Assembly (NCBI RefSeq): GCF_000744815.1
Contig: NZ_JQMQ01000004.1
Location: forward strand, 1 to 64,000
Direction of reading: 5' to 3'
Length of the DNA stretch: 64,000 nt
From: Phaeacidiphilus oryzae TH49
Lineage (GTDB): Bacteria > Actinomycetota > Actinomycetes > Streptomycetales > Streptomycetaceae
A program made the position numbers and the translations under genes. Below are positions 37,363-56,750 of this stretch, in pieces (the first letter of the stretch is position 1; each line of letters opens with the position of its first letter). A model generated the notes under the pieces. It was not told the DNA's origin, ran no database searches, and saw only the letters and a program-made list of their open reading frames with translations.

Positions 37363-37376
37363 GGCAATCGTTTGCC
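37363..37376. promoter_or_regulatory. LacI-type operator O1 upstream of the LIV importer
   Basis: ggcaatcgtttgcc, 12 of 14 positions symmetric with the central CG typical of LacI-family operators. Its core gcaatcgtttgc is the exact reverse complement of the core at 46075-46086, and both are followed by ctgcg. About 137 bases before the binding-protein start. Confidence 0.7.
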
Positions 37377-37452: not shown

Positions 37453-37466
37453 TGCAATCGATCGCA
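37453..37466. promoter_or_regulatory. LacI-type operator O2 upstream of the LIV importer
   Basis: tgcaatcgatcgca, 12 of 14 positions symmetric around CG, sharing gcaatcg with O1. It lies 90 bases downstream of O1 and 47 bases before the start codon, a normal arrangement for looping or roadblock repression. Confidence 0.6.
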
Positions 37467-37512: not shown

Positions 37513-38807
37513 GTGACGCAGCGGACTGAGCGACGGTTGGCCAGGCGGGCGCGGGGGGCCGCCGTGCTGGGCGGGGTGGGCGCCTTGGTGCTCCTGGCCG
37601 CGGCGTGCTCCAGCGGAGGCGGCAGCGGCGGTGGGGGCGGGGGCGGGGCGGTGCGGCCAAGGGGCCGATCAAGGTCGGCGTCTCGCTCTCCCTCACCGGG
37701 GACTTCTCCGCCGACGGCAAGGCCTTCCAGCAGGGGTACCAGCTCTGGGCGAAGAACGTGAACGCCGCCGGCGGGCTGCTCGGGCGCCAGGTCACCCTGG
37801 ACATCGTCAACGACGCCAGCAACCCCGTGCAGGTCTCCACCAACTACCAGAAGCTGATCAGTGTCGACCACGTCGACCTGGTCTTCGGTCCGTTCTCCAC
37901 CCTGCTGACCAAGGCGGCCTCGCAGGTGGTCGCCCGCTACGGCTACGCCCTGGTGGAGGGCGCGGGCGGCGGCCCCTCGGTCTTCACCAGCGGGCTGCAC
38001 GACGTCTTCGACGTCAGCCTGCCGGTGGCGAACAACCTGGTCAGCTTCGCCGAGTGGCTCGCGGCCATGCCGCCCGGGCAGCGGCCGGCGACGGCGGCCT
38101 ACGCGAGCGAGGACGACCCGTTCACCTCCCCGCAGCTGGACCGGGCGCGGTCGATCCTCGAAGCGGCCGGGGTGAAGACGGTCTACAACAAGATCTACCC
38201 CTCCGAGACCACCGACTACGGCCCCATCGCCGCCGGGATGATCGGCGCCAAGGCGGACGTGGTGCTGGTCGGCACACTGCTGCCGGACGTGACCGCCTTC
38301 ATCCAGCAGTTCGTCCAGCAGAACTACGATCCCAAGGCCTTCATCGCCACCGCGGGACCGGACCAGGGCGCCCAGTTCCTCAAGAACATCGGCGGCGCCA
38401 AGCGCGCGCAGGGCGTGATGGTGCCCAACGAGTGGTATCCGACCGATCCGGCTCCGGGCAATGCCGCCATGGTGGCCTCCTATCTCCACACCTACGGGGG
38501 CAGTGCCCAGGACATCAGCGCGGACGTCGCCGAGGCCTACTCGGTCGGCCAGGTGACCGCCCAGGCGGTGACCCGCAACGGCTCCCTCGACCAGGGCAGG
38601 CTGATCTCGGAACTGCACAGCGGCAGCTACCAGACCGTCCAGGGAGCGGTGAAGTTCGACGCCACCGGGCAGAACACCAAGGCCTTCGCCTATGTCTTCC
38701 AGTGGCAGAACGGCCGGCTGGTGCCGTACCAGCCGAACGCCGCCAAGGCGCTGACCCCGGTGCCGCCGGAGAAGGCCGCGGTGCTCTACCCCAAGCCGGC
38801 CTGGTGA
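37513..38807 (+). CDS. LIV-type ABC transporter substrate-binding lipoprotein; apparent one-base frameshift
   Basis: About 431 residues if repaired. The amino terminus (ARGAAVLGGVGALVLLAAAC, lipobox LAAC, then a Ser/Gly linker) is in one frame. The mature protein (AAKGPIKVGVSLSLTGDF onward to 38807) is in the next. Adding one G in the G-rich tract at about 37636-37653 joins them smoothly. The binding domain is a type-1 periplasmic fold: GDFSADGKAFQQGYQLW, VNAAGGLLGRQVTLD and VDLVFGPFSTLLT. It is the first gene of the LIV importer. GTG at 37513 is preferred (aggggtg upstream); GTG at 37504 is also possible. The error lies in a homopolymer-rich linker, so a functional gene is likely. Confidence 0.88.
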
Positions 38808-38820
38808 GGGCGGGCCGCCG

Positions 38821-39717
38821 ATGGGGAGCGAACTGGTTCGCGCGGTCGTCGAGGGGGTGCTGACCGGCGGTGTCTACGCCCTGATGGCCGCCGGTCTGAC
38901 GCTGGTCTTCGGGGTGATGGACATCATCAACATCGCCCAGGGGATCATGGTGGTGCTGGGCGCGTATCTCGCCTATGTGCTGCAGGTCCACGCCGGGATC
39001 GACCCGTTCGTCGGCCTGGTGGTCACCGTGCCGGCGATGTTCCTCCTCGGGATGGGCATCGAGTGGGGGTTCGTCCGGCGGCTGCGGCGGCGCGGGCGTG
39101 CCGGGCGGGACCGGGCGGCGCTGTCGGTGCTGGTCACCTTCGCGGTGGCGATCGTGATCGAGGGCGTGCTGACCGTCGTCTTCTCCGCCGACCTGCGCAC
39201 CCTGAACGCCTGGTACGTCCGCCGCTCCTGGCAGGTCGCCGGGCTGCGGCTGCCGTATGTGTACCTCTTCGGGTTCGGGCTGGCCGTCGTCCTGCTGGCG
39301 GCGCTCTACCTCTTCCTCTACCGGACCAGGGGCGGGTTCAGCCTCCGGGCGTCCATGGAGAACCGGGACGGCGCCGAACTGATCGGCGTCGAGATCGACC
39401 GGGTGTGCGCCCTCACCTTCGGCCTGGGGACCGCGGTGACCGCGGCCGGCGGCGCGGTCTTCGGGGCGACCAACACCTTCGACCCCAACTCCGGCTACGA
39501 CCTGATCTCCCGGCTGCTGGTGATCGTCGTCCTCGGCGGGCTGGGCAGCATCGGCGGCGCGCTGGTCGCGGCCGTGGCGGCGCTGGTGATCGAGGACGTC
39601 ACCGCCGTGCTGTGGTCGCCGGTGTGGGCGAGCACGGTCTTCTTCGCGGTGCTGATCGCCGTGCTGCTGCTGCGACCCAACGGCCTCTTCGGCCGGCCGG
39701 AGGCGAGGACCGCGTGA
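38821..39717 (+). CDS. LIV-type ABC transporter permease (LivH family)
   Basis: 298 residues, eight hydrophobic segments, with GVYALMAAGLTLVFGVMDIINIAQG (split motif GVYALMAAGL/LVFGVMDI) at 19-45 and the coupling region ASMENRDGAELIGVEIDRV near 178. Starts 13 bases after the binding protein and overlaps the next permease (gtga). Imports branched-chain amino acids or similar carboxylates or amides in known relatives. Confidence 0.9.
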   Translation: MGSELVRAVVEGVLTGGVYALMAAGLTLVFGVMDIINIAQGIMVVLGAYLAYVLQVHAGIDPFVGLVVTVPAMFLLGMGIEWGFVRRLRRRGRAGRDRAALSVLVTFAVAIVIEGVLTVVFSADLRTLNAWYVRRSWQVAGLRLPYVYLFGFGLAVVLLAALYLFLYRTRGGFSLRASMENRDGAELIGVEIDRVCALTFGLGTAVTAAGGAVFGATNTFDPNSGYDLISRLLVIVVLGGLGSIGGALVAAVAALVIEDVTAVLWSPVWASTVFFAVLIAVLLLRPNGLFGRPEARTA

Positions 39718-40784
39718 CCACCGCCCAGACCCCCCACCGGACCAGGACGGCGGCCGCGACGGCGGCGACGGCGGCGGCCACCGCGGCGCTGATGGACCGC
39801 TTCGAGCCGCTGGCCCGCAGCCGCCGGCTGCGGATGGGCGGGGTGCTCGCGGTGCTCGCGGCGGCGGTCTGCTTCCCGCTGGTCTTCGGCAATCCGGCGA
39901 CCACCTCGGTCGCCATGTTCACCCTGCTCTACGCGGCGGCCGCGTCCGCCTGGAACCTCTTCTCCGGCTTCACCGGATACATCGCGCTGGGCAACGCGGT
40001 CTTCTTCGGCAGCGGCGCCTACTTCCTGGCCGACGTCACCGCCCGTCTCCATGTCCGGGGCGGGGCCGGGGTGTTCGCGTTCGTTCCGCTGGCGGGGCTG
40101 TTCGCGGGGGTGGTGGCGGTGCCGGTCGGCTGGCTGGCGCTGCGGACCAGACGGCACACCTTCGTGGTGATCACCATCGCGATCTTCTTCATCTTCCAGC
40201 TCCTCGCCTACAACCTCCACTCCCTCACCAACGGCTCGGCCGGCCTTCAACTGCCGTTCGCCCCTTGGCCCGCGGCCACCTACAACGACTGGTTCTACGC
40301 CGCCGCGCTGGTGCTCGCGGTGGTCAGCACGGCCTGCGCCTGGCTGGTCCGCCGGTCGCGGACGGGGCTGGAACTGCTGGCCGTCCGGGACGACGAGGAC
40401 CGGGCGCGCGGGCTCGGCGTCCGCACCGGGCGGCTGAAGCTGGCGGCCTTCGTCCTGGCCGGCACCCTCACCGGGATGTGCGGCGCGGTCTACGCCTACT
40501 ACCTGGGCAGCATCTACCCGCCCTTCGCCTTCGACGCGATCTTCGACCTGACAGTGGCGCTGATGTCCTTCCTGGGCGGACTCGGCACGGTCAGCGGACC
40601 GGTGGTGGGGGCCCTGGTCCTGGAGCCGATTCAGCAGTACCTGACCGTGCAGTTGAGCGACGCGGGAGTGGCGCTGATCCTCTTCGGCGCGCTCTTCCTG
40701 CTGGTCATCGGGGTGCTGCCGGAGGGGATCGTGCCCTCGCTCGGCCGGGCGGCACGCTGGGCGCGCGGCCGGGCCGGGAGGTGA
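39714..40784 (+). CDS. LIV-type ABC transporter permease (LivM family)
   Basis: 356 residues. After an Ala/Thr-rich cytoplasmic start, the conserved block is NLFSGFTGYIALGNAVFFGS near 79-98, with the loop AVRDDEDRARGLGVRTGRLKL near 222. About nine hydrophobic segments. GTG start overlapping the livH-type stop. Confidence 0.9.
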   Translation: MTTAQTPHRTRTAAATAATAAATAALMDRFEPLARSRRLRMGGVLAVLAAAVCFPLVFGNPATTSVAMFTLLYAAAASAWNLFSGFTGYIALGNAVFFGSGAYFLADVTARLHVRGGAGVFAFVPLAGLFAGVVAVPVGWLALRTRRHTFVVITIAIFFIFQLLAYNLHSLTNGSAGLQLPFAPWPAATYNDWFYAAALVLAVVSTACAWLVRRSRTGLELLAVRDDEDRARGLGVRTGRLKLAAFVLAGTLTGMCGAVYAYYLGSIYPPFAFDAIFDLTVALMSFLGGLGTVSGPVVGALVLEPIQQYLTVQLSDAGVALILFGALFLLVIGVLPEGIVPSLGRAARWARGRAGR

Positions 40785-40789
40785 GGGGG

Positions 40790-41578
40790 GTGACGGGGAC
40801 GCCGGCGCGGCCGCTGCTGCGGATCGAGGACGTCCACCGCGACTTCGGCGGGCTGCGCGCCCTCGCGGGCTGCTCACTGGCCGTGGAGACCGGCACGGTG
40901 ACCGGGCTGATCGGCCCCAACGGCTCCGGGAAGACCACCCTCTTCAACGTGGTCACCGGCTACGACCGCCCGGACTCCGGCCGGGTCCGGCTGGACGGCC
41001 AGGAGATCACCGGCGCCGCGCCGGACGCCGTCGGCCGGCTCGGCCTGGCCAGGACCTTCCAGCTGACCAGGGTCTTCGACCGGCTCAGCCTGCTGGACAA
41101 CCTGCGGGTGGGGGCCGCCGCGGTGCCGCGGGCGCGGCGGCAGGCGCTCTACCGCGAGTCGCGCTGCCTTGAACTGCTCGACGTGGTCGGGCTGGTCGAC
41201 CACGCCGATCGCCGGGCCGGTGAACTCTCCTACGGGCAACGGAAGTTGGTGGAGCTGGCGACGGTGCTGGCGCAGCAGCCGCGGATCGTGCTGCTGGACG
41301 AGCCGGCCGGCGGGGTCAACCCGGGCCTGATCGCCCGGATCGGCGGCCTGATCCGCGAGCTCAACCGCTCGGGGACGACGTTCCTGGTGGTCGAGCACAA
41401 CATGGAGTTCGTGATGGGGGTGTGCGACACGGTCGCCGTGATGGAGCGCGGAGAGGTGATCGCGCAGGGCGAGCCCGAGGCGATCCGGACCGACCCGCGG
41501 GTGCTGGACGCGTACCTGGGCGGCGGCCTGGACGACGAGCCGTTCGGCGCGGAGGCGGAGCCGGGGGAGGAGGGGTGA
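40790..41578 (+). CDS. LIV-type ABC transporter ATP-binding protein (LivG family)
   Basis: 262 residues: Walker A GPNGSGKTT near residue 40, Q-loop region GLARTFQLTRVFDRLS, signature LSYGQRK near 148 and Walker B IVLLDEPAGGVNPG. GTG start, five bases after the preceding stop. Overlaps the next gene by four bases (gtga). Confidence 0.92.
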   Translation: MTGTPARPLLRIEDVHRDFGGLRALAGCSLAVETGTVTGLIGPNGSGKTTLFNVVTGYDRPDSGRVRLDGQEITGAAPDAVGRLGLARTFQLTRVFDRLSLLDNLRVGAAAVPRARRQALYRESRCLELLDVVGLVDHADRRAGELSYGQRKLVELATVLAQQPRIVLLDEPAGGVNPGLIARIGGLIRELNRSGTTFLVVEHNMEFVMGVCDTVAVMERGEVIAQGEPEAIRTDPRVLDAYLGGGLDDEPFGAEAEPGEEG

Positions 41579-42324
41579 GCGGCGGGGAGGCGGCGGAGCC
41601 GCTGCTGGAGTTCCGCGGGGTCTCGGCCGGCTACGGCGGCAGCGACGTGCTGCGCGACCTGTCGCTCGCCGTCCCGCGCGGCGGGGTGACCTGCGTGGTC
41701 GGACCCAACGGCGCCGGGAAGTCGACCGTGCTGCGGGTGCTCTCCGGGCAGCTCGCCCCCCGGCGCGGCCAGGTGCTCTTCAAGGGGCGGGACATCACCG
41801 GGCTGAGCCCGCGGCGGGTGCTGCGGGAGGGGATCGTGCAGGTGGCCCAGAACCACACCCTCTTCCCGGAGATGTCGGTCCGGGAGAACGTCCGGGCGGG
41901 GGCCTTCCTGCTGCGCGACCGGGCCGCCGTGGCCCGGCGGCTGGCCGAGGTCGAGGAGGCCTTCCCGATCGTCCGGGAGCGGGCCGGGGAGCGGGCCGGC
42001 GCGCTCTCCGGCGGGCAGCGGCGGCTGGTGGAGTTCGCCCGCTGCCTGATGCTGGACCCGGAGCTGGTGGTGCTGGACGAGCCGTCCATGGGCCTGGACC
42101 CGCGTACCCTGCGGGTTGTTCTCGGCCGGGTGCGGGACATGGCAGAGGCGGGCCGGACGGTGCTGCTGGTCGAGCAGAACGTCCGGGCCGGGCTGTCCCT
42201 GGCGGCCCGGGCCGTGGTGCTGGAGAGCGGCCGGGTCCGGCTGACCGGGACCGGCGCCGCGCTCCTCGCCGACGCCCGGGTGGCCCACCTCTACCTGGGC
42301 GGGGCCACCTCCCCGGCGCCCTGA
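41575..42324 (+). CDS. LIV-type ABC transporter ATP-binding protein (LivF family)
   Basis: 249 residues: Walker A GPNGAGKST near residue 43, VAQNHTLFPEMSVRENV, signature LSGGQRR near 145 and Walker B LVVLDEPSMGLDP. GTG start with gggggagg upstream, overlapping the LivG-type stop. Last gene of the importer; it ends one base from the convergent lacI-type stop with no room for a terminator. Confidence 0.92.
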   Translation: MSGGEAAEPLLEFRGVSAGYGGSDVLRDLSLAVPRGGVTCVVGPNGAGKSTVLRVLSGQLAPRRGQVLFKGRDITGLSPRRVLREGIVQVAQNHTLFPEMSVRENVRAGAFLLRDRAAVARRLAEVEEAFPIVRERAGERAGALSGGQRRLVEFARCLMLDPELVVLDEPSMGLDPRTLRVVLGRVRDMAEAGRTVLLVEQNVRAGLSLAARAVVLESGRVRLTGTGAALLADARVAHLYLGGATSPAP

Positions 42325-42325
42325 C

Positions 42326-43597
42326 TCAGCGCCCGCCCGCGGGCCGCGGACCCCCGCCGCCCGGCCGGTCCGTCGACCCCCGGACCACCAGCGTCGCCGG
42401 GAGGAGCAGCGAACGCGGGCCGCTCGCCGGGTGCCGGCCCGCCGCGGCCGGACCGGCGGTGAGGCTGTCCAGCAGCATCCGGGCGGCCTCCGCGCCCAGC
42501 TCGTGATGGGGGACGCGGACCGTGGTCAGCGGCGGGTGCATCTTGTCCAGGAACGGCATGTCGTTGAAGCCGACCACGCTGACGTCCCGCGGGCACTCCA
42601 GTCCGCGTTCGGCCAGCACGTCGTAGCAGCCCAGCGCGATCAGGTCGTTCCCGGCCACCACGGCGGTGAACTCCCGTCCGGCGTCCAGCAGTCCGCGCAG
42701 CGCGCGGGCCCCGTCCGGTTCGGTCCAGGCGGCGCACTCGGCGATCAGCTCCGGGGCGTCCGGCAGCCCGTGGTCGCGCAGCGCGTGCCGGAAGGCCCGC
42801 GCCCTGGCCACGCCGGTGGACGTGTCCCGGGGACCGGAGAGGTGGGCGATCCGGGTGTGCCCCAGCTCGACCAGATGCCGCACGGCGAGCGCCACCCCGC
42901 CGGCGTCGTCCCCGGTGACCAGCGGCACCGGCAGGCCCTCGGTGCGGCGGTTGACCAGCACCATGGTGACGCCCTGGGTGTGGAGGGCGTGCAGCAGCGG
43001 GTGGTCGAGCCGGGCGGTGGCCACGATCAGGCCCTCGACCTGGCGGGAGCGCAGCGCCTCGATCCGCGCCTGCTCCCGCTCGGGGACGTTGTCGGTGTTG
43101 ACCACCCAGGCGCTGTACCCGGCCGGGTCGAGGACGCTCTCGATGCCCCGCACGATCGGCGGGAAGAGGGGGTTCGTCAGGTCCGGGACGACCAGCCCGA
43201 CGGTCGCGGTGCGGGCCGTCTTGAGGCTGCGCGCGATCGGGTTCGGCTGGTAGCCGAGGGCCTCGGCGGCCCGGCGGACCCGGCGGGCGGTCTCGCCGCG
43301 GACCATCCGCCGGGTCTCCGGGTTCAGCGCCCGGGAGGCGGTGGCCGCGTGGACGCCGGCGGCCTCGGCCACGTCCCGGAGGGTCGGCGGGCGGCCGGGG
43401 GCGACGGGCTCGGCCCGCGCGGGACGGTCGGGGGAGCGCTCGGGGGAACGGTCGGCGGAGGGCCCGGAGGAGCGATCGGCGGAGACCGCGGCGGAGCGCT
43501 CGGCGGAGGCCGTGGCGGAGCGGTCGCGGGAGCGGTCGCCGGAGCGTCCGCGGGGGCCCTGCTGCCGGGGCAGGGCCGGGTGGTGGTCGGTCTGCAT
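42326..43597 (-). CDS. LacI-family transcriptional repressor
   Basis: 423 residues, longer than the usual 340. The first 65 residues are a disordered tail with about nine (D/E)RS units (for example ADRSPERSPDRP). The helix-turn-helix follows at about 72-92 (TLRDVAEAAGVHAATASRAL), then the hinge GYQPNPIARSLK. The type-1 periplasmic-like effector domain spans 130-405 (TATVGLVVPDLTNPLFPPI, VEGLIVATARLDHP, RIAHLSGPRDTSTG). ATG start. It is the last gene of the catabolic set and convergent with the importer. Matching palindromes at 37363, 37453, 46075 and 47238 are its likely operators. Confidence 0.9.
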   Translation of the reverse strand: MQTDHHPALPRQQGPRGRSGDRSRDRSATASAERSAAVSADRSSGPSADRSPERSPDRPARAEPVAPGRPPTLRDVAEAAGVHAATASRALNPETRRMVRGETARRVRRAAEALGYQPNPIARSLKTARTATVGLVVPDLTNPLFPPIVRGIESVLDPAGYSAWVVNTDNVPEREQARIEALRSRQVEGLIVATARLDHPLLHALHTQGVTMVLVNRRTEGLPVPLVTGDDAGGVALAVRHLVELGHTRIAHLSGPRDTSTGVARARAFRHALRDHGLPDAPELIAECAAWTEPDGARALRGLLDAGREFTAVVAGNDLIALGCYDVLAERGLECPRDVSVVGFNDMPFLDKMHPPLTTVRVPHHELGAEAARMLLDSLTAGPAAAGRHPASGPRSLLLPATLVVRGSTDRPGGGGPRPAGGR

Positions 43598-43626: not shown

Positions 43627-44919
43627 TCAGTAGGCGTTCGCGACGACCAGGTCCTGCGCCGGGAAGAGGGTGAGGACCCGGGCGCCCTCGGGGGTCACCA
43701 CGACCTCCTCCTCGATCCGGGCGGCCGAGAAGCCGTCGTCGGCCGGGCAGTAGGTCTCCAGCGCGAAGACCATCCCCGCGCGCAGCTCCACCGGTTCCCG
43801 CATGCTGTTCAGCCGGGAGATGATCGGCCGCTCATGGAGGCCGAGGCCCAGCCCGTGACCGAACTGCAGGCCGAACGCGGCCATCTCGTCCTCGAATCCG
43901 AACTCGGTGGCCGCCGGCCACAGCCGGGCGATCCGGTCGGTGGTCACCCCCGGCCGGACGGCGTCGATCGCGGCGTCCATCCACTCCCGCGCCCTGGTGT
44001 AGGCGTCGCGCTGGGAGGGGGTCGCGCTGCCCACCCCGAAGGTGCGGTAGTAGCAGGTGCGGTAGCCGTTGTAGGAGTGGATGATATCGAAGAAGGCCTG
44101 GTCGCCGGGGCGGATCAGGCGATCGGAGAAGTTGTGGGGATGCGGGTTGCAGCGTTCGCCGCTGACCGCGTTCACCGCCTCTACCTGGTCCGAACCGCCC
44201 GCGTACAGCCGCTGGTTGACCAGGGCGACGATCTCGTTCTCGCGGACTCCGGGCTTCAGCGCCTCCAGCACGTCCTGGTAGACCCCGTCCACCATCGCCG
44301 CCGCCTGGTTGAGCAGCGTGATCTCGTCCTGGGACTTGATCTCGCGGGCGTCCAGCATCAGTTGCTGGGCGTCCACCACCGTCAGCCCCTGCCGCTGCAT
44401 CTCGAAGAGGAACGGCGGTTCCACGATGTCCACCCCGACCGGGGCGCCGGCCAGGCCCGCGTCCCGCAGCAGCCCCTTGATCTCACGGACGGCCTCCGCC
44501 ATCAGCCCCGCGCTGGGGGCTATCGCCCCGCGCAGGCCGAGCATCCCGGCCCGGCAGTCGGCGGGGTCCAGCCAGGGGCTGTGCAGCCGGTGGTGGCGGG
44601 CGGCCGAGCCGAAGTCCCAGAGCTTGGGCGTGCCGCCGTCCCGGGTGAGGAGGGCGTAGCGGGTCATCTTGTCGCCGAGCGCGCCGCCGATCCAGGTCTG
44701 GGTGGTGTAGCGGATGTTGTAGAAGTCGAAGAGGAGGAAGGCGCCGCACTCGCCGGCGTCCAGGGCCGCCCGGGCGCGGGCCAGCCGGTGGTCGCGGAGG
44801 CGGTCGAAGTCCACCCGCTGCTCGTAGTCGACGGCCATGTGGCCCGGCGCGGGGACCGGTGCGGTGGGCGGGGCCGGCGCGGTCCGCGCGGCGCTCCGGG
44901 AGGACGCGGGGGCGGTCAC
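43627..44919 (-). CDS. M24-fold (Xaa-Pro peptidase/creatinase-like) hydrolase
   Basis: 430 residues. The creatinase amino-terminal domain is at about 35-190 and the pita-bread catalytic domain at 195-425. Of the usual five metal ligands D278 (FFDIIHSYNG), a histidine in QFGHGLGLGLH, E388 (FALETYC) and a glutamate in RIEEEVVV are present. The second aspartate position (GYxxDxTRTF in aminopeptidase P) is C289 in GYRTCYYRTF. Creatinase itself lacks metal, and DMSP lyase DddP also belongs to this fold, so the reaction need not be peptide cleavage. GTG start with aaggag eight bases upstream; overlaps the upstream dehydrogenase by four bases (gtga). Confidence 0.87.
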   Translation of the reverse strand: MTAPASSRSAARTAPAPPTAPVPAPGHMAVDYEQRVDFDRLRDHRLARARAALDAGECGAFLLFDFYNIRYTTQTWIGGALGDKMTRYALLTRDGGTPKLWDFGSAARHHRLHSPWLDPADCRAGMLGLRGAIAPSAGLMAEAVREIKGLLRDAGLAGAPVGVDIVEPPFLFEMQRQGLTVVDAQQLMLDAREIKSQDEITLLNQAAAMVDGVYQDVLEALKPGVRENEIVALVNQRLYAGGSDQVEAVNAVSGERCNPHPHNFSDRLIRPGDQAFFDIIHSYNGYRTCYYRTFGVGSATPSQRDAYTRAREWMDAAIDAVRPGVTTDRIARLWPAATEFGFEDEMAAFGLQFGHGLGLGLHERPIISRLNSMREPVELRAGMVFALETYCPADDGFSAARIEEEVVVTPEGARVLTLFPAQDLVVANAY

Positions 44920-46004
44920 GGCCGGTCTCCTTCGCCGTCGCCCGGGTCGGCGCCGTCTTCCGGGCCGGCGTCGAAGCCCCCGCCCTCGCCCGGTCCCTCG
45001 CCGAGGCCGTCGCCCGGTCCCTCGCCGGGACCGTCGCCGAGGCCGTCGTCCACCTCGACGTTCTCCGGGGCGAGGGTGAGGCCGGAGGCGGCGGCCTGCT
45101 GGTCGAGGAGGACGGCGAAGTCCTCGCCGGTGCGCCCGCCGCCGATGGTCGCCTGGACCAGCTGCGCGGTGGCGGCGGCCAGCGGCATCGGCACGCCGAG
45201 CTCCCGGGCCGCGTCCAGACCGAGGTCCAGGTCCTTGCGGAGCAGCGGCGGGGTGAAGGTCGGGGAGTAGTCGAGGTTGACGAAGGCCGGCGACTTGTAG
45301 CGGGTGAACGCCGAGCCCAGCACGCTGTCGTTGAGGAACTCCAGGAAGGCGTGGCGCGGGACCCCGCCCTTCTCGGCCAGCACGGTGATCTCCGCCAGGG
45401 ACTGGGTGACCACCCCGAGGAAGACGTTGTGGGCGATCTTCACCAGCCGGGCGGTGTCCCCCTCGCCGGCGTAGGTGGCCGCGCGTCCGATGGTGTGGAG
45501 CAGCGGGGAGACTCGCTCGTACGCCTTCTGCGGGCCGGAGACCACCAGGCTCAGCTTCCCGGCCTCGACCACCTTGGCGTTGCCGCTGACCGGTGCGGCC
45601 AGGAAGTCCGCGCCGGCCGCCGCGCAGGCCTCCCGGACCGCCGCCGAGGCCTCGGCGGAGACCGTGGAGCAGTCCACGACGACCGCCGGCACCGGGCCGG
45701 CCGGCGCCTGGCCGTCGGAGTGGATCAGGCCGTCCTCGCCGAGCAGCACCTCCTTGAGGTCCTCCGAGCCGGCCACCGTCGTGAAGACGACGTCCCGGTC
45801 CCGCAGTTCGGCGATGGAGTCGCGGACCTCGGCGCCGAACCGGCGCAGCGGCTCGGCCTTGGCGCGGGTGCGGTTCCACACCGCGAGGTCGTGGCCGGCC
45901 CGGGCCAGGCGCTCGGCCATCGCCGCGCCCATCCGGCCCGTACCGATCCAGCCGACGCGCAGCCGTTCCCGGTCGGTGTTCCGCGCTGAAGCCGAGTCCG
46001 CCAT
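44916..46004 (-). CDS. NAD(P)-dependent beta-hydroxyacid dehydrogenase family protein
   Basis: 362 residues. The Rossmann start GWIGTGRMGAAMAERLARAG has GxGxxG near residue 20. The substrate motif is AAPVSGNAKVVEAG and the catalytic-lysine region DTARLVKIAHNVFLGVV, as in 3-hydroxyisobutyrate dehydrogenase and glyoxylate/succinic-semialdehyde reductases. A tail of about 45 residues made of repeated (D/E)GPG(D/E)G units is unusual for the family and probably disordered. ATG start. First gene of the operon with the M24 enzyme and the LacI repressor; an operator-like palindrome lies at 46075-46086. Confidence 0.88.
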   Translation of the reverse strand: MADSASARNTDRERLRVGWIGTGRMGAAMAERLARAGHDLAVWNRTRAKAEPLRRFGAEVRDSIAELRDRDVVFTTVAGSEDLKEVLLGEDGLIHSDGQAPAGPVPAVVVDCSTVSAEASAAVREACAAAGADFLAAPVSGNAKVVEAGKLSLVVSGPQKAYERVSPLLHTIGRAATYAGEGDTARLVKIAHNVFLGVVTQSLAEITVLAEKGGVPRHAFLEFLNDSVLGSAFTRYKSPAFVNLDYSPTFTPPLLRKDLDLGLDAARELGVPMPLAAATAQLVQATIGGGRTGEDFAVLLDQQAAASGLTLAPENVEVDDGLGDGPGEGPGDGLGEGPGEGGGFDAGPEDGADPGDGEGDRP

Positions 46005-46074
46005 CTGACACCCTCTCCTCGTCCGGCTCTCCTCTTCCGGTGGGGGTACCGGGGGATTCCGGTAGGGGTAACTC

Positions 46075-46086
46075 GCAAACGATTGC
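46075..46086. promoter_or_regulatory. LacI-type operator O3 upstream of the dehydrogenase operon
   Basis: gcaaacgattgc followed by ctgcg. The core is the exact reverse complement of O1 at 37363-37376. It lies about 70 bases before the dehydrogenase start and just after the stop of the hydrolase gene, where the operon promoter should be. Confidence 0.7.
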
Positions 46087-46103
46087 CTGCGGCTGACGGT
46101 ATC

Positions 46104-47180
46104 TCACCCGTCGGCGTTCAGCCGTTCCGCCACCCAGTCCGCGGTGTACGGCCGGTGCCAGGGCGCGACGTTCGCGCAGCCGTGGTTGCCGCGCTCCAGC
46201 ATCAGCAGCTCGCCGTGCGGGGCGCTGTCCGCCAGCCGCTGGGCCTGCTGCCAGGGGAAGAGCCGGTCCTGCCGGCCGAAGACCACCAGCAGCGGGGCGG
46301 TGATCCGCTCGGCGTGACCGGCCAGGTCCAGGCCGAGCGCCAGGTCGCGGGCCTCCTTGGCGGAGCCGGAGCGGGACCGGACCCGGAAGGCGTCCTGGGT
46401 CAGCGGCGGTAGCCCCTCCCAGCATTCGCCGAGGTTGAACGGCCCGGCCAGGGCGACGCAGGCGCGGATCCGGCGCCCGGCGGCGGCCGCGACCCGAGGG
46501 GCGTAGTACCCGCCCAGGCTGACCCCCCAGACCGCGAGCCGGCGCGGGTCCACCCCCGGCTGGGCGGCCAGCGCGTCCAGCATCGCGGTGCCGGGCGCGG
46601 ACCAGTCGGCGCGGATCGGCAGGTCGTACTCGGCCTCGCCCTGGCCCGGTCCGTCCACGCTGAAGGTGGCCACCCCGCGCTCCAGGAAGGCCTGTTCGAC
46701 CAGGTGCTGCTCCTCCTTTGCCGAGTCCAGGCCGGAGAGCAGCAGGACCGCGCCGTGGTGCGGGCCCTCGCCGCCCGCTCCGCGCGGCAGCCGCAGGATG
46801 CCGGCCATCCTGCCGCCCTCGAAGGGGATCTCCACCCGACGGCCGGGCGGGTCCAGGTACGGCAGGGCGTCGTTACGGCAGGCCACCGCGCGGCGGTGGG
46901 CCGCCCGCAGCTGGTCCGGGTCCTGTACGAAGAGGAACTTGGCGAAGTGGTAGTAGACCGCGGCCCGGGAGAGGTGCTGACCCGCCGTCAGGGCGTGCCC
47001 GGCGGCCAGGGCCTCGCGGCCGAGCCGCTCGTGCTCGGCGGCCGCCTCGCACCAGGCGGCGCACCAGTCCGACCAGTTCCGGAGGTCGCGGGTGACCCGC
47101 TCGAAGTCGGAGACGGTCACGCCGTTGGTGGTGAATCGCGGCGCCCAGTTGGCCAGGGCGGAGGCTACTCGATCGTCCAT
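46104..47180 (-). CDS. Alpha/beta hydrolase with helical amino-terminal domain (dihydroxypseudooxynicotine-hydrolase-like)
   Basis: 358 residues. Residues 1-110 are helical (DWCAAWCEAAAEHERLG, HLSRAAVYYHFAKFL). The alpha/beta-hydrolase core has the nucleophile elbow GVSLGGYY near 220, an acid in VFGRQDRLFP near 300 and a histidine in ERGNHGCAN near 336. This layout matches 2,6-dihydroxypseudooxynicotine hydrolase, a C-C bond hydrolase of nicotine catabolism, and related esterases. ATG at 47180; an in-frame ATG at 47195 is equally possible. An operator-like site lies 58 bases upstream at 47238-47251. Substrate unknown. Confidence 0.85.
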   Translation of the reverse strand: MDDRVASALANWAPRFTTNGVTVSDFERVTRDLRNWSDWCAAWCEAAAEHERLGREALAAGHALTAGQHLSRAAVYYHFAKFLFVQDPDQLRAAHRRAVACRNDALPYLDPPGRRVEIPFEGGRMAGILRLPRGAGGEGPHHGAVLLLSGLDSAKEEQHLVEQAFLERGVATFSVDGPGQGEAEYDLPIRADWSAPGTAMLDALAAQPGVDPRRLAVWGVSLGGYYAPRVAAAAGRRIRACVALAGPFNLGECWEGLPPLTQDAFRVRSRSGSAKEARDLALGLDLAGHAERITAPLLVVFGRQDRLFPWQQAQRLADSAPHGELLMLERGNHGCANVAPWHRPYTADWVAERLNADG

Positions 47181-47237: not shown

Positions 47238-47251
47238 TGCAAACGAGTGCA
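47238..47251. promoter_or_regulatory. LacI-type operator O4 upstream of the hydrolase
   Basis: tgcaaacgagtgca; its core gcaaacgagtgc matches O3 at 11 of 12 bases. It lies 58 bases upstream of the hydrolase start codon on the minus strand. Confidence 0.6.
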
Positions 47252-47291: not shown

Positions 47292-47741
47292 TCAGTGCCG
47301 GGCGGCGGCCTCGCGGGCGGCGGTCAGATACCGCTCCACGGTCTCCAGCTCCGCCGGCGTGAACTCCGCTGCCGCGTCCACCAGTCCGCCGATCAGCGGG
47401 CCGAAGAAGGACCAGCCCAGCTCCTCGGCCCGCTCCTCGACCGAGAGGAGGACCCGCCGCCGGTCGGCCCGGTCGCGGGTGCGGGACACCAGGCCGAGCC
47501 GCTCCAGCCGGTCGAGCAGCGCGGTGACGCCCGCCGAGTTGAGCCGCAGCGCGGCACCGAGCCGCCCGGGGGTGGCGACCGTGCCGGCCCGGCCCGCGTC
47601 CATCAGGAAGATCAGCGCCCGCAGGTCGGTGGGGTGGAGGCCGTTGCGGGCCGCGAACTCGGCGCCGCGCAGGTCGAACTCCACGGTGACTGCGCGGAGG
47701 AGGTGCACCAGCCGCATGGCGGGCTTGAGGTCTTCACTCAC
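47292..47741 (-). CDS. MarR-family transcriptional regulator
   Basis: 149 residues with the winged helix at about 40-100: GLHPTDLRALIFLMDAG, TPGRLGAALRLNSAGVTALL, DRLERLGLVSRTRDRADRR. GTG start. Divergent from an alpha/beta hydrolase gene; a 15-bp palindrome lies between them and would let the regulator control both genes. MarR proteins respond to phenolic or oxidative ligands; the ligand here is unknown. Confidence 0.88.
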   Translation of the reverse strand: MSEDLKPAMRLVHLLRAVTVEFDLRGAEFAARNGLHPTDLRALIFLMDAGRAGTVATPGRLGAALRLNSAGVTALLDRLERLGLVSRTRDRADRRRVLLSVEERAEELGWSFFGPLIGGLVDAAAEFTPAELETVERYLTAAREAAARH

Positions 47742-48806: not shown

Positions 48807-49661
48807 ATGGCCGAGACACCGAGGTGGATGCTGCCGGCGGACCATCAGCGGTCGCTCCAGGCCGAGCAGGCGGTGCCCGCCCCGCCGGTGGACCTGCGGA
48901 CCGACCAGCCGCACTCCGCCCGGGTCTACGACTACATCATCGGCGGCAAGACCAACTTCCCCGCCGACCGGGAGACCGCCGCCAAGTCCCTGGAGCGCTG
49001 GCCGGGCCTGCGCACCTCGATGCGGCTCAACCGCGCCTGCATGCGCCGGATCGCCCGCAGGCTGACCGAACTCGGGGCCCGTCAGTTCATGGACATCGGC
49101 ACCGGGATACCCACCTCGCCCAACCTCCACGAGGTGGTCCAGGCCGAGGCCCCGGAGGCGAGGATCGCCTACGTGGACAACGATCCCATCGTCCTCGCCC
49201 ACGCCCGCGCGCTGCTCAGCAGCACGCCGGAGGGCCGCACCGGCTACGTCCAGGCCGACATGCGGGACGTCGACGGCCTGCTCGCCGACCCCGTCCTCAA
49301 CGGCATCCTGGACCTCGGGCGGCCGATCGCGCTGACCCTGATCGCCGTCCTCCAGTTCGTCGAGGACGCCCACGGCCTGGTGCGGGCGCTCACCGAGCGG
49401 CTGCCCTCCGGCAGCCACCTCGCGCTCACCATCCCCACCGGCGAACTCGCCGCGGAGTCCCGGGCGCTGGCCGAGGAGTACACCGCCAACGGCATCCCGA
49501 TGTACCTCCGCAGCCGGGCCGAGGTCGAGGCGCTCTTCGAGGGCTTCGAGCTGCTCGGCCCCGGCATCGTCCCGATGACCCGCTGGGAGCCGGACCCCGG
49601 CGAGGAGCGGCTCCCCGACGACACCACCAACATGTACGCGGGGATGGGCGTCAAGCCGTAG
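48807..49661 (+). CDS. SAM-dependent methyltransferase, DUF574 family
   Basis: 284 residues. The family hallmark HSARVYDYIIGGKTNFPADR lies near residues 36-55, the SAM-binding strand FMDIGTGIPTSPNLHE near 94 and the acidic ribose contact AYVDNDPIVLAHARALL near 120. DUF574 proteins are numerous in streptomycetes with few known substrates. ATG start with aaagg upstream. Its stop codon overlaps the end of the convergent monooxygenase gene by 11 bases. Confidence 0.88.
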   Translation: MAETPRWMLPADHQRSLQAEQAVPAPPVDLRTDQPHSARVYDYIIGGKTNFPADRETAAKSLERWPGLRTSMRLNRACMRRIARRLTELGARQFMDIGTGIPTSPNLHEVVQAEAPEARIAYVDNDPIVLAHARALLSSTPEGRTGYVQADMRDVDGLLADPVLNGILDLGRPIALTLIAVLQFVEDAHGLVRALTERLPSGSHLALTIPTGELAAESRALAEEYTANGIPMYLRSRAEVEALFEGFELLGPGIVPMTRWEPDPGEERLPDDTTNMYAGMGVKP

Positions 49662-52080
49662 CCGTGGCCGGGGGCGTAACCGCAACCGCCTCCGCCTCCG
49701 CGGGCGCGGCCCCGCGGCTCGGCTTCCACCGCAGGTGGATGGGCTGCCCGTCGGCGGAGGCGCGCAGCAGCGCCAGCCGCGGCGGGATCTTGTCGGTACG
49801 GGAGGACGGCGGCCGCCGGGACCCGGCGGCGAACTGCGCAGGCCACTCGGCGCCCTCCCCCCGGTACTCCTGCTCGGCCGCGGCCTGCAGGGTCCACTGC
49901 GGGTTGTAGAGGTGGGTGCGGCCGAGGGCGCACAGGTCGGCGCGGCCGGCCAGCAGGATCGAGTTGACGTCGTCGTAGGAGGAGATCGCGCCCACCGCGA
50001 TCACCTTGACCCCGGCCGGGCGGGCGACGGTCTGCCGGATCCGGTCCGCGAACGGCGTCTGGTACGAGCGGCCGAAGGCGGGTCGCTCCTCCTTGGCGAC
50101 CTGGCCGGTGGAGACGTCGATCGCCGCTGCCCCGTGTGCGACGAAGGCGCGGGCGATCTCCACCGCGTCCTCGGCGGTGTTGCCGTCCGGCATCCAGTCG
50201 GTGGCCGAGATGCGGACGGTCACCGGGACGCTGTCCGGCACCGCCGCGCGTACCGCGTCGAAGACCTCCAGCGGGAAGCGCAGCCGGTTGGCCGGCGAGC
50301 CGCCGTACTCGTCGGTGCGGTGGTTGGCGAGGGGGGAGAGGAAGGAGGAGAGGAGGTAGCCGTGGGCGGCATGGACCTCGATCAGGTCGAAGCCGGCCGC
50401 GACCCCCCGTTCGGCGGCCGCGACGAAGTCGGCGACCACCTTGTCCAGATCGGCCCGGTCGGCCTCGCGTGGGGTGTGGCAGCCCTCGCCGTAGGGGATC
50501 GCGGAGGGGCCGATGACCTCCCAGTTCCCGCTCTCCAGCGGCTGGTCGATGCCGTCCCACATCAGCCGGGTGGACCCCTTGCGGCCGGCGTGGCCGAGCT
50601 GGAGGCCGATCTTGGCGGTGGAGCGGGTGTGGACGAAGTCGGTGATCCGGCGGTAGGCGTCGCGCTGGTCGTCGTTCCACAGCCCGGTGCAGCCGGGGGT
50701 GATCCGGCCCTCCGGGGAGACGCAGACCATCTCGGTCATCACCAGCCCGGCGCCGCCCAGGGCCTTGGAGCCGAGGTGCACCAGGTGGAACTCGCCGGCC
50801 AGGCCGTCCTCGGCGGAGTACATGTCCATCGGGGAGACGAGGACGCGGTTCTTCAGCCGCAGCGGGCCGATCTCGACCGGCTGGAACATCGCCGGGACCG
50901 AACCCCGGGCGTCCGCCGCCGCCGTCCCGGCGAAGGCCCGCTGGACGCGTGCGGCGAACTCGGGGTCGCGCTCCTTGAGGTTCTCGAAGGTGATCCGCCG
51001 GGAGCGGGTCAGCAGGTTGAAGCAGAACAGCTCGGGGTCCTGCCCGGCGTACATCCCGATGTCCTCGAACCACTCCAGGGAGGCCTGGGCGGCCCGCTGG
51101 GTGGACTCCACCACCGGCTTGCGCTCGCTCTGATAGGCCGTCAGCGCCGCCTCCAGCGAAGGCTGTTCGTGCAGACAGGCGGCCAGCGCCAGGGCGTCCT
51201 CCATGGCCAGTTTGGTGCCGGAGCCGATGGAGAAGTGGGCGGTGTGGGCGGCGTCGCCGAGGAGCACCACATTGCCGTGGTGCCAGCTGCGGTTGCGCAC
51301 GGTGGTGAAGTTCAGCCACTTGGAGTTGTTGCCGAGCACCCGGTGGCCGCGGAGTTCCCCGGCGAAGATCTCGGAGATCCGGGCGACGGCGTACTCGTCC
51401 GAGGCCCCGGGCGGGAAGGCGTCGCCCTCGGTGGCGTCGAAGCCGGCCCGCCGCCAGACCTCCTCGTGCATCTCCACGATGAAGGTGGAGCCGTGGTCGC
51501 CGTAGGGGTAGCCGTGGATCTGCATGGTGCCCCACTCCGTCTGCTTGACGAAGAACTGGAACGCCTCGAAGACCAGGTCGGTACCGAGCCAGATGTACTT
51601 GTTGCGGCGCCGGTCCAGGGAGGGCCCGAAGTGGTCCGCGTACCGCTCCCGGATCCGGGAGTTGAGCCCGTCCGCGGCGACCACCAGGTCGTATTCGGCG
51701 CGCAGCGCCTCCGGGTCGGGCGCCTCGGTGCGGAAGCGGACGTCGGCGCCGAGCTCGGCGGCCCGCCGCTGGAGGAGCTGGAGGAGCTCCTTGCGGCCCA
51801 TCGCGGCGAAGCCCTGGCCGCCGACGGTGAAGGAGCGGCCGTCCAGCCCGATGTCGATGTCGGTCCAGCGGGCGAAGCGGGCGGCCATCTGCTCGTGGAT
51901 CACGGTGTCGGCGTTCTCGATGCCGCCCAGGGTCTCGTCGGAGAAGACCACGCCGAAGCCGAAGGTGTCGTCGGGGGCGTTGCGCTCCCAGACGGTGATC
52001 CGGTGGCCCGGGTCGAGCTGCTTCATCAGCGCGGCGAAGTAGAGTCCGGCGGGGCCGCCGCCGGCGATAGCGATCTTCAA
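49651..52080 (-). CDS. Bifunctional aryl-CoA (salicylyl-/2-aminobenzoyl-CoA) monooxygenase fused to Old Yellow Enzyme reductase
   Basis: 809 residues. Residues 1-390 are a group A flavin monooxygenase: FAD motif IAGGGPAGLYFAALM, DG motif VVAADGLNSRIRERY, GD motif VVLLGDAAHTAHFSIGSG. Residues 405-760 are an Old Yellow Enzyme barrel with SPMDMYSAEDG, LQLGHAGRKG and HAAHGYLLSSFLSP, NHRTDEYGGS. This fusion is known as 2-aminobenzoyl-CoA monooxygenase/reductase in Azoarcus, and its first half resembles salicylyl-CoA 5-hydroxylase. The start is TTG at 52080, read from perfect homology and a strong gaggagg upstream; it overlaps the ligase stop (ttga). Would hydroxylate, and perhaps reduce, the CoA thioester made by the neighbouring ligase. 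Confidence 0.9.
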   Translation of the reverse strand: MKIAIAGGGPAGLYFAALMKQLDPGHRITVWERNAPDDTFGFGVVFSDETLGGIENADTVIHEQMAARFARWTDIDIGLDGRSFTVGGQGFAAMGRKELLQLLQRRAAELGADVRFRTEAPDPEALRAEYDLVVAADGLNSRIRERYADHFGPSLDRRRNKYIWLGTDLVFEAFQFFVKQTEWGTMQIHGYPYGDHGSTFIVEMHEEVWRRAGFDATEGDAFPPGASDEYAVARISEIFAGELRGHRVLGNNSKWLNFTTVRNRSWHHGNVVLLGDAAHTAHFSIGSGTKLAMEDALALAACLHEQPSLEAALTAYQSERKPVVESTQRAAQASLEWFEDIGMYAGQDPELFCFNLLTRSRRITFENLKERDPEFAARVQRAFAGTAAADARGSVPAMFQPVEIGPLRLKNRVLVSPMDMYSAEDGLAGEFHLVHLGSKALGGAGLVMTEMVCVSPEGRITPGCTGLWNDDQRDAYRRITDFVHTRSTAKIGLQLGHAGRKGSTRLMWDGIDQPLESGNWEVIGPSAIPYGEGCHTPREADRADLDKVVADFVAAAERGVAAGFDLIEVHAAHGYLLSSFLSPLANHRTDEYGGSPANRLRFPLEVFDAVRAAVPDSVPVTVRISATDWMPDGNTAEDAVEIARAFVAHGAAAIDVSTGQVAKEERPAFGRSYQTPFADRIRQTVARPAGVKVIAVGAISSYDDVNSILLAGRADLCALGRTHLYNPQWTLQAAAEQEYRGEGAEWPAQFAAGSRRPPSSRTDKIPPRLALLRASADGQPIHLRWKPSRGAAPAEAEAVAVTPPATATA

Positions 52081-53798
52081 CGCTGTTCCTCCTCGATGAT
52101 CCGCCGCAGGATGTAGTGCTGCAGCTTCCCGCTGGGGTTGTGCGGGAGCGACGCCCGGAACCTGATCTCGCGGGGGTACTTGTACGGCGCCAACTGCCGT
52201 TTCACATGCTCCTGGAGCTCTCGTGCGGTGCCCTCGTCCGCGGTCGCGCCCTCGCGGAGCACCACGAACGCGCAGACGATCGAGCCGCGTTCGGGATCCG
52301 GCTTGGCCACGACCGCGGACTCCAGCACGTCCGGGTGGGTGTCCAGGGCCGCCTCCACCTCCGGTCCGCCGATGTTGTAGCCGGAGGAGACGATCATGTT
52401 GTCGGTGCGGGCGCGGTAGGTGAAGTAGCCGTCCTCGTCCCGGACGAAGGTGTCGCCGGTGACGTTCCAGCCGTTCACCACGTACGCCGACTGCCGGTGG
52501 TCGTCCAGGTAGCGGCAGCCGACCGGGCCGATCACGGCCAGCCTGCCCTCGGCGCCCGGCGGCAGTTCGTTGCCGTCGGCGTCCAGCACGGTGGCCCGGT
52601 AGCCGGGCACCGGGCGGCCGGTCGTGCCGGGGCGGATGTCCTCGCCGGCCGCGGAGATGAAGATGTGGAGCATCTCGGTGGCGCCGATCCCGTCGATGAT
52701 CCGCAGCCCGATCTCGGACTCGATCCGCTGCCAGACCTCCTGCGGGATGTGCTCGCCCGCGCTCACCGCCGTCCGCAGCCCGCGCAGCCGGCCGATCAGG
52801 CCCGCCTTGAGGATCTGCCGGTAGGCGGTGGGCGCCGTGGAGAGCACCGTGACGCCGAACTCCTCGACCAGGTCGGCGAGTCGGGCCGGGGTGGCGCTCT
52901 CGGTCAGGAACATGCAGGCGCCGGCCCGGAGCGGGAAGACCACCAGCATGCCGAGGCCGAAGGTGAACCCGAACGGCGCGGTGCCGGCCACCAGGTCGTC
53001 GGGTCGCAGCCGGAGGACGTGGCGGCCGAAGGTGTCGTCGATGGCCAGCAGGTCGCGGTGGAAGTGGATGGTGATCTTCGGGGTTCCGGTGGAGCCCGAT
53101 GTCGGCCCGAAGAGCGCGATGTCGTCGGCCGCGGTGTCCACGTTGGCGAACTCGCCGGGCTTCGCCGCGCAGAGCGCCAGCAGGTCGTCCGCGGCCTCGC
53201 CGCCGAAGGCGACCAGCCGCAGCCCCGGCGCCGCGCTGTCCCGCAGCTCGGCCACCTCCGCGGTGAACCGGTGGTCGACCAGCGCGAGCGCCACCTCGCA
53301 CTTGGCCACCACCGGTGCCAGATCGCGCACCCGCAGTGCGGCGAGGGTGGTCACCGCGATCCCGCCGGCCTTCAGGATGCCCAGCCAGCAGGCCACCGCC
53401 CAGGGGTTGTTGGGCGCGCGCAGCAGTACCCGGTTGCCGGGCACCAGACCCAGGTCCTCGACCAGCACCCGGGCCACCTGGTTGGCCCGCTGCCGCAGCT
53501 CGCCGTAGGTCCACAGCTCGCCGGTGTCGGTGCGGATCGCCGGCCGGTCGGGGCCGTGGGCGGCCACCGCGGCGTCGATCAACTCCCCGGCCGCATTGAG
53601 GCGTTCGGGACGTCCGCGGAGCGCCTCGGTGTCGAACTCCAGACGCGGCCACTGCGCGGACGGGGGCAGCCGGTCGCGGCCGAAGGTGTCCGGGTAGGCG
53701 GTGGGGGAGAGCCGCACAGCTGCGGCCGGTGCCGCCGGGGCCCCCGGGGCCGCGGGCGGCGTCGGGGGCAGCGGTCGGGTCGGTGGCGTGGGTGGCAT
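52077..53798 (-). CDS. Benzoate-CoA ligase family acyl-CoA synthetase
   Basis: 573 residues. A Pro-rich start (about 25 residues) precedes the ANL-fold enzyme: ATP-binding GPTSGSTGTPKITIHF near 215, DGIGATEMLHIFISA near 350, the hinge TYRARTDNMIVSSGYNI near 455 and the adenylation lysine in NPSGKLQHYIL near 560. Activates an aromatic acid with ATP and CoA. Context points to salicylate or anthranilate rather than benzoate, because the next gene acts on such thioesters. ATG start; overlaps the monooxygenase start. Confidence 0.9.
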   Translation of the reverse strand: MPPTPPTRPLPPTPPAAPGAPAAPAAAVRLSPTAYPDTFGRDRLPPSAQWPRLEFDTEALRGRPERLNAAGELIDAAVAAHGPDRPAIRTDTGELWTYGELRQRANQVARVLVEDLGLVPGNRVLLRAPNNPWAVACWLGILKAGGIAVTTLAALRVRDLAPVVAKCEVALALVDHRFTAEVAELRDSAAPGLRLVAFGGEAADDLLALCAAKPGEFANVDTAADDIALFGPTSGSTGTPKITIHFHRDLLAIDDTFGRHVLRLRPDDLVAGTAPFGFTFGLGMLVVFPLRAGACMFLTESATPARLADLVEEFGVTVLSTAPTAYRQILKAGLIGRLRGLRTAVSAGEHIPQEVWQRIESEIGLRIIDGIGATEMLHIFISAAGEDIRPGTTGRPVPGYRATVLDADGNELPPGAEGRLAVIGPVGCRYLDDHRQSAYVVNGWNVTGDTFVRDEDGYFTYRARTDNMIVSSGYNIGGPEVEAALDTHPDVLESAVVAKPDPERGSIVCAFVVLREGATADEGTARELQEHVKRQLAPYKYPREIRFRASLPHNPSGKLQHYILRRIIEEEQR

Positions 53799-53817
53799 CG
53801 GGGACCTTCCAGTGCGG

Positions 53818-55295: not shown

Positions 55296-55304
55296 GAGCG
55301 ACTC

Positions 55305-56150: not shown

Positions 56151-56251
56151 CCTCGGGCTCTCCTCCTCGGCCGGCACGGGCTTGCCATGTGTCGTTTTTT
56201 TCATGGCCGTCATATAAAGTCAATAGCCGATTCGATCGTACGGAGGCCCTG

Positions 56252-56668: not shown

Positions 56669-56670
56669 GC

Positions 56671-56692
56671 CGGGCGGCGGCCGGGCCGCCCG
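56671..56692. terminator. Hairpin between the Rid and paaX-type genes
   Basis: cgggcggc (56671-56678) pairs perfectly with gccgcccg (56685-56692) in the gap between convergent genes. No T run follows. Two direct copies of gggcgacggcgc come just after it. Confidence 0.5.
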
Positions 56693-56750
56693 GGGCGACG
56701 GCGCCGGCACCCGGGCGGGGCGACGGCGCGGGCAGGGGCGGCCGGCCGGG

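Follow-up and report, generated by a model that had tools for sequence, protein, structure and literature searches.

Our analysis of the window, a 64,000-nucleotide stretch of the genome of the soil actinobacterium Phaeacidiphilus oryzae TH49, points to a LacI-repressed catabolic regulon (probability roughly 0.72) comprising a LIV importer and three enzymes: a 2,6-dihydroxypseudooxynicotine hydrolase (DHPONH)-like hydrolase, a beta-hydroxyacid dehydrogenase and an M24 enzyme with a Cys substitution in its metal site. The sequences show that importer and enzymes stay linked across many genera and have LacI-type operators in common; from this we infer the regulon and its individual steps. The three enzyme genes proposed in an earlier note on this DNA were all found on the minus strand of positions 43627–47180. 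They encode the M24 enzyme (PF00557; 43627–44919, 430 aa from GTG 44919), a dehydrogenase of the 3-hydroxyisobutyrate/tartronate-semialdehyde reductase superfamily (PF03446/PF14833; 44916–46004), whose gene overlaps that of the M24 enzyme by 4 bp (44916–44919), and an alpha/beta hydrolase (46104–47180) placed by profile match and conserved triad in the group of 2,6-dihydroxypseudooxynicotine hydrolase, AntI and FrsA. The LIV importer and LacI control claimed in the same note are likewise present and adjoin the enzymes. The LacI-family regulator (42326–43597, minus strand; profile match) belongs to an ortholog cluster found in 52 of 76 related loci, and its gene adjoins a complete LIV gene set (about 37514–42324, plus strand) that is convergent with the minus-strand operon. 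This set consists of a substrate-binding protein (PF13458; 37514–38807), a permease (PF02653; 38821–39717), a second permease (39714–40784) and an ATPase (40790–41578), both assigned by neighbour clustering across related loci, and a second ATPase (41575–42324) from the same neighbour cluster as the first. A MarR-family regulator gene lies upstream of the operon (47292–47741, minus strand); no conserved partner cluster was found for it among the relatives' loci, and its membership of the cluster is doubtful.

A LacI-type operator-like motif, TGCAAnCGnTTGCA, occurs upstream of the importer, dehydrogenase and hydrolase genes, so that the locus combines a LacI gene with operator-like sites at the promoters. 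Two sites precede the importer (GGCAATCGTTTGCC at 37363–37376 with two mismatches to the motif, and TGCAATCGATCGCA at 37453–37466 with one), another lies between the hydrolase and dehydrogenase genes (46074–46087, two mismatches), and a further one is found upstream of the hydrolase (TGCAAACGAGTGCA at 47238–47251, one mismatch). The window holds five such sites where 0.79 would be expected (0 of 100 shuffles). Only four near-perfect sites exist in the 7.8-Mb genome, two of them at the cluster (37453–37466 and 47238–47251); of the others, C4:518751 is flanked by a different LacI-like gene and a divergent gene for a secreted protein, and C5:5143119 falls within a coding region. The pattern extends to related loci, where CAAnCGnTTG precedes 33 of 41 LIV substrate-binding protein genes, 39 of 59 dehydrogenase genes and 27 of 37 genes for NMT1-like proteins, compared to 27 of 476 other genes. 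LacI-family operators resemble one another, and the motif is therefore no proof that this particular LacI binds.

The importer may be impaired in this strain. The open reading frame of the binding protein (37605–38807) carries no lipoprotein signal; a signal peptide with lipobox is encoded in another frame, starting at GTG 37514. With signal and mature parts in different frames, the gene appears to be frameshifted in this genome, within a G-rich Gly/Ser linker, which could mean a non-functional importer in this strain or else an assembly error.

To place the cluster in context we compared 76 related loci from 32 named genera, a set picked by M24 similarity and hence not phylogenetically independent. 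Scattered positions of the homologues would have spoken against a functional set, and they were found grouped instead: the dehydrogenase lies directly upstream of the M24 gene in 70/76 loci (with a gap below 60 bp in 65), and in 23/76 the genes run uninterrupted in one direction from the LIV binding protein to the M24 enzyme. This conserved synteny, together with the common LacI-type operators, bears out the claim that the genes form one functional set. The set recurs at 55–75% identity (loci L129–L136) and is also found on roseobacter plasmids, while part of it is present in Paenarthrobacter. The cluster occurs in 16 of 150 related genomes, a patchy spread that fits an accessory catabolic module. 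Additional genes recur beside it, namely a succinate-semialdehyde-dehydrogenase-like aldehyde dehydrogenase (51/76 loci), a TPP-dependent E1 of acetoin/2-oxoacid dehydrogenase type (fused or beta in 46/76, alpha in 13/76) and often a VOC protein. The dedicated E1 and aldehyde dehydrogenase are absent from the P. oryzae locus, and the genome's own copies, encoded elsewhere, are distant (43% and 59%). The DHPONH-like hydrolase is present in 28/76 loci and absent from most relatives. We considered the VOC protein as an extradiol dioxygenase, but ring cleavage by it is not supported: as read from the sequence, its four ligand-like positions are of epimerase/glyoxalase type, and among solved structures its relatives are limited to methylmalonyl-CoA epimerases and a single bleomycin-resistance protein. 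A search of papers readable without subscription, covering M24 enzymes in catabolic clusters, RidA and Paenarthrobacter, dehydrogenase with aminopeptidase P, sulfonamide plasmids and hydrolase/acetoin combinations, returned nothing on the Cys-substituted M24 family.

The M24 enzyme matches PF00557 over its catalytic domain (138 bits, cutoff 23, E 3.7e-40). Its metal-site set is D278-C289-H355-E388-E403, which departs from the D-D-H-E-E site of the peptidases by a Cys in place of the second metal Asp, as the earlier note had read from the letters. Each of the five residues is invariant in 85/85 relatives. The Cys persists even in the most distant, a haloarchaeal protein of 37% identity, which marks C289 as characteristic of the family rather than a local change. 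The haloarchaeal link is weaker, since the NAD(P) oxidoreductase near the M24 gene there shares no homology with the dehydrogenase; of the haloarchaeal loci inspected, only that of H. mediterranei has E1 and an SSADH close to M24. Xaa-Pro peptidase is the routine annotation for M24 proteins.

The AlphaFold model used for structural comparison (pLDDT 76) predicts a two-domain pita-bread fold resembling prolidase, DoeA and creatinase along its full length (Z 28–30 over 350–360 residues). It is unlikely, though with some points in its favour, that the enzyme is a normal or mildly modified Xaa-Pro dipeptidase, which would cut the amide bond of an imported peptide, or similar compound, containing proline or a hydroxyacid, by the usual metal-hydroxide mechanism with Cys as a tolerated ligand. 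PepE and prolidases are the nearest single solved relatives (a PDB profile search at a strict limit of 1e-30 gave no match), Xaa-Pro dipeptidases match the predicted structure at Z 29.6, the peptidase active-site residue H260 is kept along with D278, H355, E388 and E403, and LIV-type importers often carry amides and amino-acid derivatives. H362, the other active-site His, is kept in the subgroup of this enzyme but replaced by Trp or Tyr in other parts of the family, whereas the Cys for the bridging Asp is present in every member. The score against the PepQ equivalog is 89.6 bits (cutoff 630), and indeed no curated M24 family cutoff is ever exceeded. The fixed linkage to hydroxyacid and 2-oxoacid/acyloin dehydrogenases, in what would be a small-molecule catabolic regulon, is moreover atypical of peptidase genes. 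Given seven further PF00557 matches elsewhere in the genome, the altered metal site and the failure to reach any curated peptidase cutoff, the enzyme is probably not a housekeeping prolidase.

Non-peptide precedents on the same fold offer partial parallels. The top structural match to the model is the ectoine hydrolase DoeA/EutD (6twk, Z 29.7), a catabolic C-N hydrolase, but identity is about 20%, the score against TIGR02993 is 61.6 bits (cutoff 613) and no ectoine genes were found near the locus. Creatinase (1chm, 7yto) matches at Z 28.0–28.3, on a fold general to M24B enzymes, and is an altered-metal-site enzyme serving catabolism, as proposed here. Creatinase acts without a metal, whereas the present family strictly keeps four metal ligands plus the Cys, which argues against a creatinase-like metal-free site. 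Very improbable is a DMSP- or DMSOP-type lyase module. The DMSP lyase DddP (4rzy, 4b28) shares the two-domain architecture, its NCBIfam model NF043017 aligns over full length (residues 37–423), and it is a structural neighbour of the model (Z 26.7); yet at 89.3 bits the score stays far below the cutoff of 600, the fits to ectoine hydrolase, prolidase and creatinase are as good or better, and the neighbourhoods lack acrylate- or DMS-related genes. Of the six DddP iron ligands (D295, D297, D307, H371, E406 and E421; PMC4108388), D297 and D307 correspond to I280 and C289. A preference for DddP seen with a first, poor AlphaFold model (31 close sequences, pLDDT 64) disappeared with the better one. 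The dimethylsulfonio-like substrate suggested earlier is accordingly not upheld, and of the suggestion that the enzyme works like creatinase or DddP, not as a peptidase, the departure from peptidases probably stands while the likeness to DddP falls.

The partner enzymes also diverge from named relatives. The dehydrogenase has the NAD-binding and C-terminal domains and the catalytic K189, but its substrate loop reads S140-G141-N142 where S-G-G is usual in the superfamily, and its score is about half of what the curated models of the best named members require. For the hydrolase, the best solved relative is 2,6-dihydroxypseudooxynicotine hydrolase of the Paenarthrobacter nicotine pathway (2jbw, E 6.9e-42), and the likeness claimed earlier holds from end to end, with the N-terminal helical part and the Ser-Asp-His triad (S221-D305-H333, conserved in 29 sequences) included, at about 30% identity. 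As the related AntI and Ayg1 act in polyketide shortening, C-C cleavage is likely by analogy without implying a substrate. Nicotine degradation itself was discarded, since no other nicotine genes were recognised within the window or the conserved neighbour clusters. Pantothenate, kojic acid and alkylpyrazines, also considered as candidate substrates, found no supporting genes and are not put forward.

We postulate that the LIV-type ABC importer takes up a small organic molecule and that an inducer releases LacI. The serine hydrolase would cleave a C-C bond (retro-Claisen type) or an ester, the dehydrogenase would oxidise a hydroxyacid intermediate, and the M24 enzyme, binding at least one metal in its pita-bread fold through ligands that include a thiolate, would break a C-N (amide-like) or other C-X bond; the products could then enter an acyloin/2-oxoacid dehydrogenase and an aldehyde dehydrogenase. 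It is possible, at well below even odds, that the substrate is instead a sugar acid, polyol or acyloin-like compound without nitrogen, with the M24 enzyme a metal-dependent lyase or isomerase yielding an acyloin/2-oxoacid for E1/E2 and the SSADH-like enzyme oxidising the resulting aldehyde. This is a variant of the preferred scheme, differing in substrate and M24 chemistry. DddP gives a precedent for a lyase on this fold, the LacI regulator is of RbsR/CytR type by profile scores, roseobacter relatives carry sugar-type ABC importers and ThuA, some relatives of E1 alpha bear the annotation acetoin dehydrogenase alpha, and the VOC protein is epimerase-like. Actinobacterial relatives, however, have LIV-type and NMT1-like binding proteins, RidA beside the Paenarthrobacter copies points to nitrogen, and a cyclic or aromatic substrate is suggested by the DHPONH-like hydrolase and by a molybdenum hydroxylase of two subunits, encoded at some of the related loci.

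We therefore regard the cluster as a putative catabolic module under LacI control with a Cys-substituted pita-bread enzyme at its centre, one that is common and syntenic across the 32 named genera, plasmids included. More tentatively, and with the odds somewhat against it, the clade in bacteria and haloarchaea may have converted the dinuclear site of the peptidases to one with a Cys among its metal ligands. Its reaction, new to the fold, would be the central step of an undescribed catabolic pathway under one LacI regulon, in which acyloin/2-oxoacid cleavage follows the oxidation of a hydroxyacid. Such a metal site would be a new one for this well-studied fold, and with an invariant Asp-to-Cys clade tied to a catabolic regulon, the peptidase annotation is probably wrong in many genomes.

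The earlier note's gene trio is present at 43627-47180 on the minus strand: an alpha/beta hydrolase gene (46104-47180), a beta-hydroxyacid dehydrogenase gene (44916-46004) and an M24 enzyme gene (43627-44919), with a 4-bp overlap between the last two. A LacI regulator gene (42326-43597) lies ~30 bp downstream of the M24 gene on the same strand, and a complete LIV-type importer set (37514-42324, plus strand) is oriented towards it. The window is the start of contig C4 (894 kb). The actinobacterial genome (7.8 Mb) has seven further PF00557 matches, so that peptidase housekeeping is independent of this M24 gene. The LIV binding-protein ORF begins at 37605 without a signal peptide. Translation from GTG 37514, in a different frame, gives a lipoprotein signal with the ending LLAAACSSGG; the signal and mature frames join within a G-rich Gly/Ser linker (~37605-37660), and the break may reflect an error of assembly or a genuine frameshift. 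The LacI N-terminus (43390-43580) carries an Arg/Ser/Asp-rich repeat extension. Elsewhere in the window, 49651-57596 is a separate cluster, probably for salicylate or 2-aminobenzoate degradation, with a bifunctional salicylyl-CoA 5-hydroxylase/oxidoreductase (1174 bits vs a cutoff of 1078), a benzoate-CoA-ligase-like enzyme and, by eye, thioesterase, FAH-type hydrolase, RidA protein and regulator look-alikes. A putative sulfur-oxidation set at 58957-62128, also read by eye, comprises an MBL-fold persulfide-dioxygenase-like protein, two rhodanese-like proteins and a TauE-like permease.

Alignments to solved M24 enzymes place the metal positions at D278, C289, H355, E388 and E403 (numbered from GTG 44919). 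All five, the Cys included, are invariant in 85 relatives of 89% down to 37% identity, the most distant being from a Haloferax; Halorussus and H. mediterranei copies also have the Cys. Because it is invariant in this set, but is Asp in the Sinorhizobium and Caballeronia enzymes (~30% identity; D-T-D as in DddP), Cys at position 289 is, on these alignments, the marker of a clade. The family also departs from the peptidases at H362, the second catalytic-site His in the GHG..HE motif: Trp takes its place in the 56% group, and haloarchaeal copies have Tyr. The locus enzyme stays below the cutoff of every curated M24 family, scoring 90 bits against PepQ (cutoff 630), 89 against DddP (600) and 62 against DoeA (613). 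DddP requires six iron ligands (PMC4108388), of which D297 and D307 have no equivalents here. A structural model built from 67 family sequences (pLDDT 76) aligns over its full length with DoeA, PepE, Xaa-Pro dipeptidase and creatinase at Z 28-30, and reaches Z 26.7 with DddP; the modelled fold does not single out one function. D278 and C289 (D253 and C264 in model numbering) are predicted on adjacent strands (249-258 and 261-271), an arrangement shared with the two metal Asp residues of prolidases.

Over its full length the hydrolase is related to 2,6-dihydroxypseudooxynicotine hydrolase (DHPONH; 2jbw, E 6.9e-42) and, more remotely, to AntI and Ayg1-type enzymes; its S221-D305-H333 triad is kept in 29 relatives. 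Known members of the DHPONH group act on beta-dicarbonyl compounds, cleaving C-C bonds. The dehydrogenase is a member of the 3-hydroxyisobutyrate/tartronate-semialdehyde reductase superfamily and scores near half of the cutoffs of the best named families. Its tail, a Gly/Asp/Glu repeat encoded at 44916-45080 (GDGPGEGPGDGLGEGPGEG...), makes it ~60 residues longer than most relatives (362 vs 300 aa).

We sampled 80 related loci from genome contigs, 76 of them analysable, in 32 named genera. In 70 of the 76 the dehydrogenase gene immediately precedes M24, within 60 bp in 65. LacI is present in 52, SSADH-like aldehyde dehydrogenase (ALDH) in 51, TPP-dependent E1 (fused or beta) in 46, LIV binding protein and NMT1-like protein in 40 each, VOC in 39, E2 in 36, GntR in 31, DHPONH-like hydrolase in 28 and molybdenum hydroxylase subunits in 15-18. 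An unbroken run of LIV genes, hydrolase (where present), dehydrogenase and M24 occurs in 23/76, and the core LIV-dehydrogenase-M24-E1alpha-E1beta is retained at 55-75% identity (loci L131, L132). Roseobacter plasmids combine M24 with E1, E2, SSADH, dihydrolipoyl dehydrogenase and sugar-type importers; Paenarthrobacter plasmids, with RidA or a LIV importer. The one NMT1-like protein read among the 40 loci (L067:8020-8922) shows no obvious signal peptide and could be a cytosolic enzyme with a binding-protein fold, not a transporter part. Mycobacterial and Aeromicrobium versions of the cluster (L046, L048, L051, L055, L069) encode LVIVD-like repeat proteins adjoining a second ABC importer, sulfonate/taurine type by look. 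On Shinella and Rhizobium plasmids (L141, L142) a DHPONH-like hydrolase sits in a different shared cluster, with an intradiol-type dioxygenase, 3-keto-5-aminohexanoate cleavage protein, zinc alcohol dehydrogenase, cupin and gamma carbonic anhydrase.

Allowing up to two mismatches, the window holds five copies of the palindrome TGCAAnCGnTTGCA vs 0.79 expected, a count reached in 0/100 shuffles; four sites lie directly before the importer (two), dehydrogenase (one) and hydrolase (one). With at most one mismatch it occurs at four places in the whole genome, two at this locus and one adjoining another LacI-like gene. In relatives, CAAnCGnTTG precedes 33/41 LIV binding-protein, 39/59 dehydrogenase and 27/37 NMT1-like genes vs 27/476 other genes (Fisher p ~1e-56, overstated because the loci are related). 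Most VOC, GntR and E1/E2 genes have no such motif upstream, and these genes may make up a second unit. LacI-family operators resemble one another, so that binding of these operator-like sites by the locus LacI is an inference. Sequence comparison shows that the importer, regulator, hydrolase, dehydrogenase and Cys-type M24 genes form a co-inherited unit with shared operator-like sites. The gene set that the earlier note proposed as an unassigned degradation route is a real finding, its grouping made firmer by synteny and shared operators than the initial reading could show.

In the proposed pathway, the compound would be taken up by the importer and cut hydrolytically, a hydroxyacid would be oxidised, and M24 would make a metal-dependent cut; acyloin/2-oxoacid cleavage and aldehyde oxidation would then act on the product. 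The E1 alpha of relatives is similar to proteins that carry the annotation acetoin dehydrogenase alpha. This locus has no dedicated E1 or ALDH gene; since the closest own-genome copies are 43% and 59% identical, general enzymes may serve the later steps, or the module may have been reduced here. RidA, LIV-type uptake, molybdenum hydroxylase and the DHPONH-like hydrolase speak for a substrate that contains nitrogen or is cyclic; LacI, and the sugar-type importers and ThuA of roseobacters, speak for a sugar-acid or polyol-like one. The M24 enzyme is present in only 16/150 related genomes, as expected of an accessory trait. The system is made from known parts and its kind is not new; the M24 clade and the pathway appear, within the limits of the searchable literature, to be undescribed.
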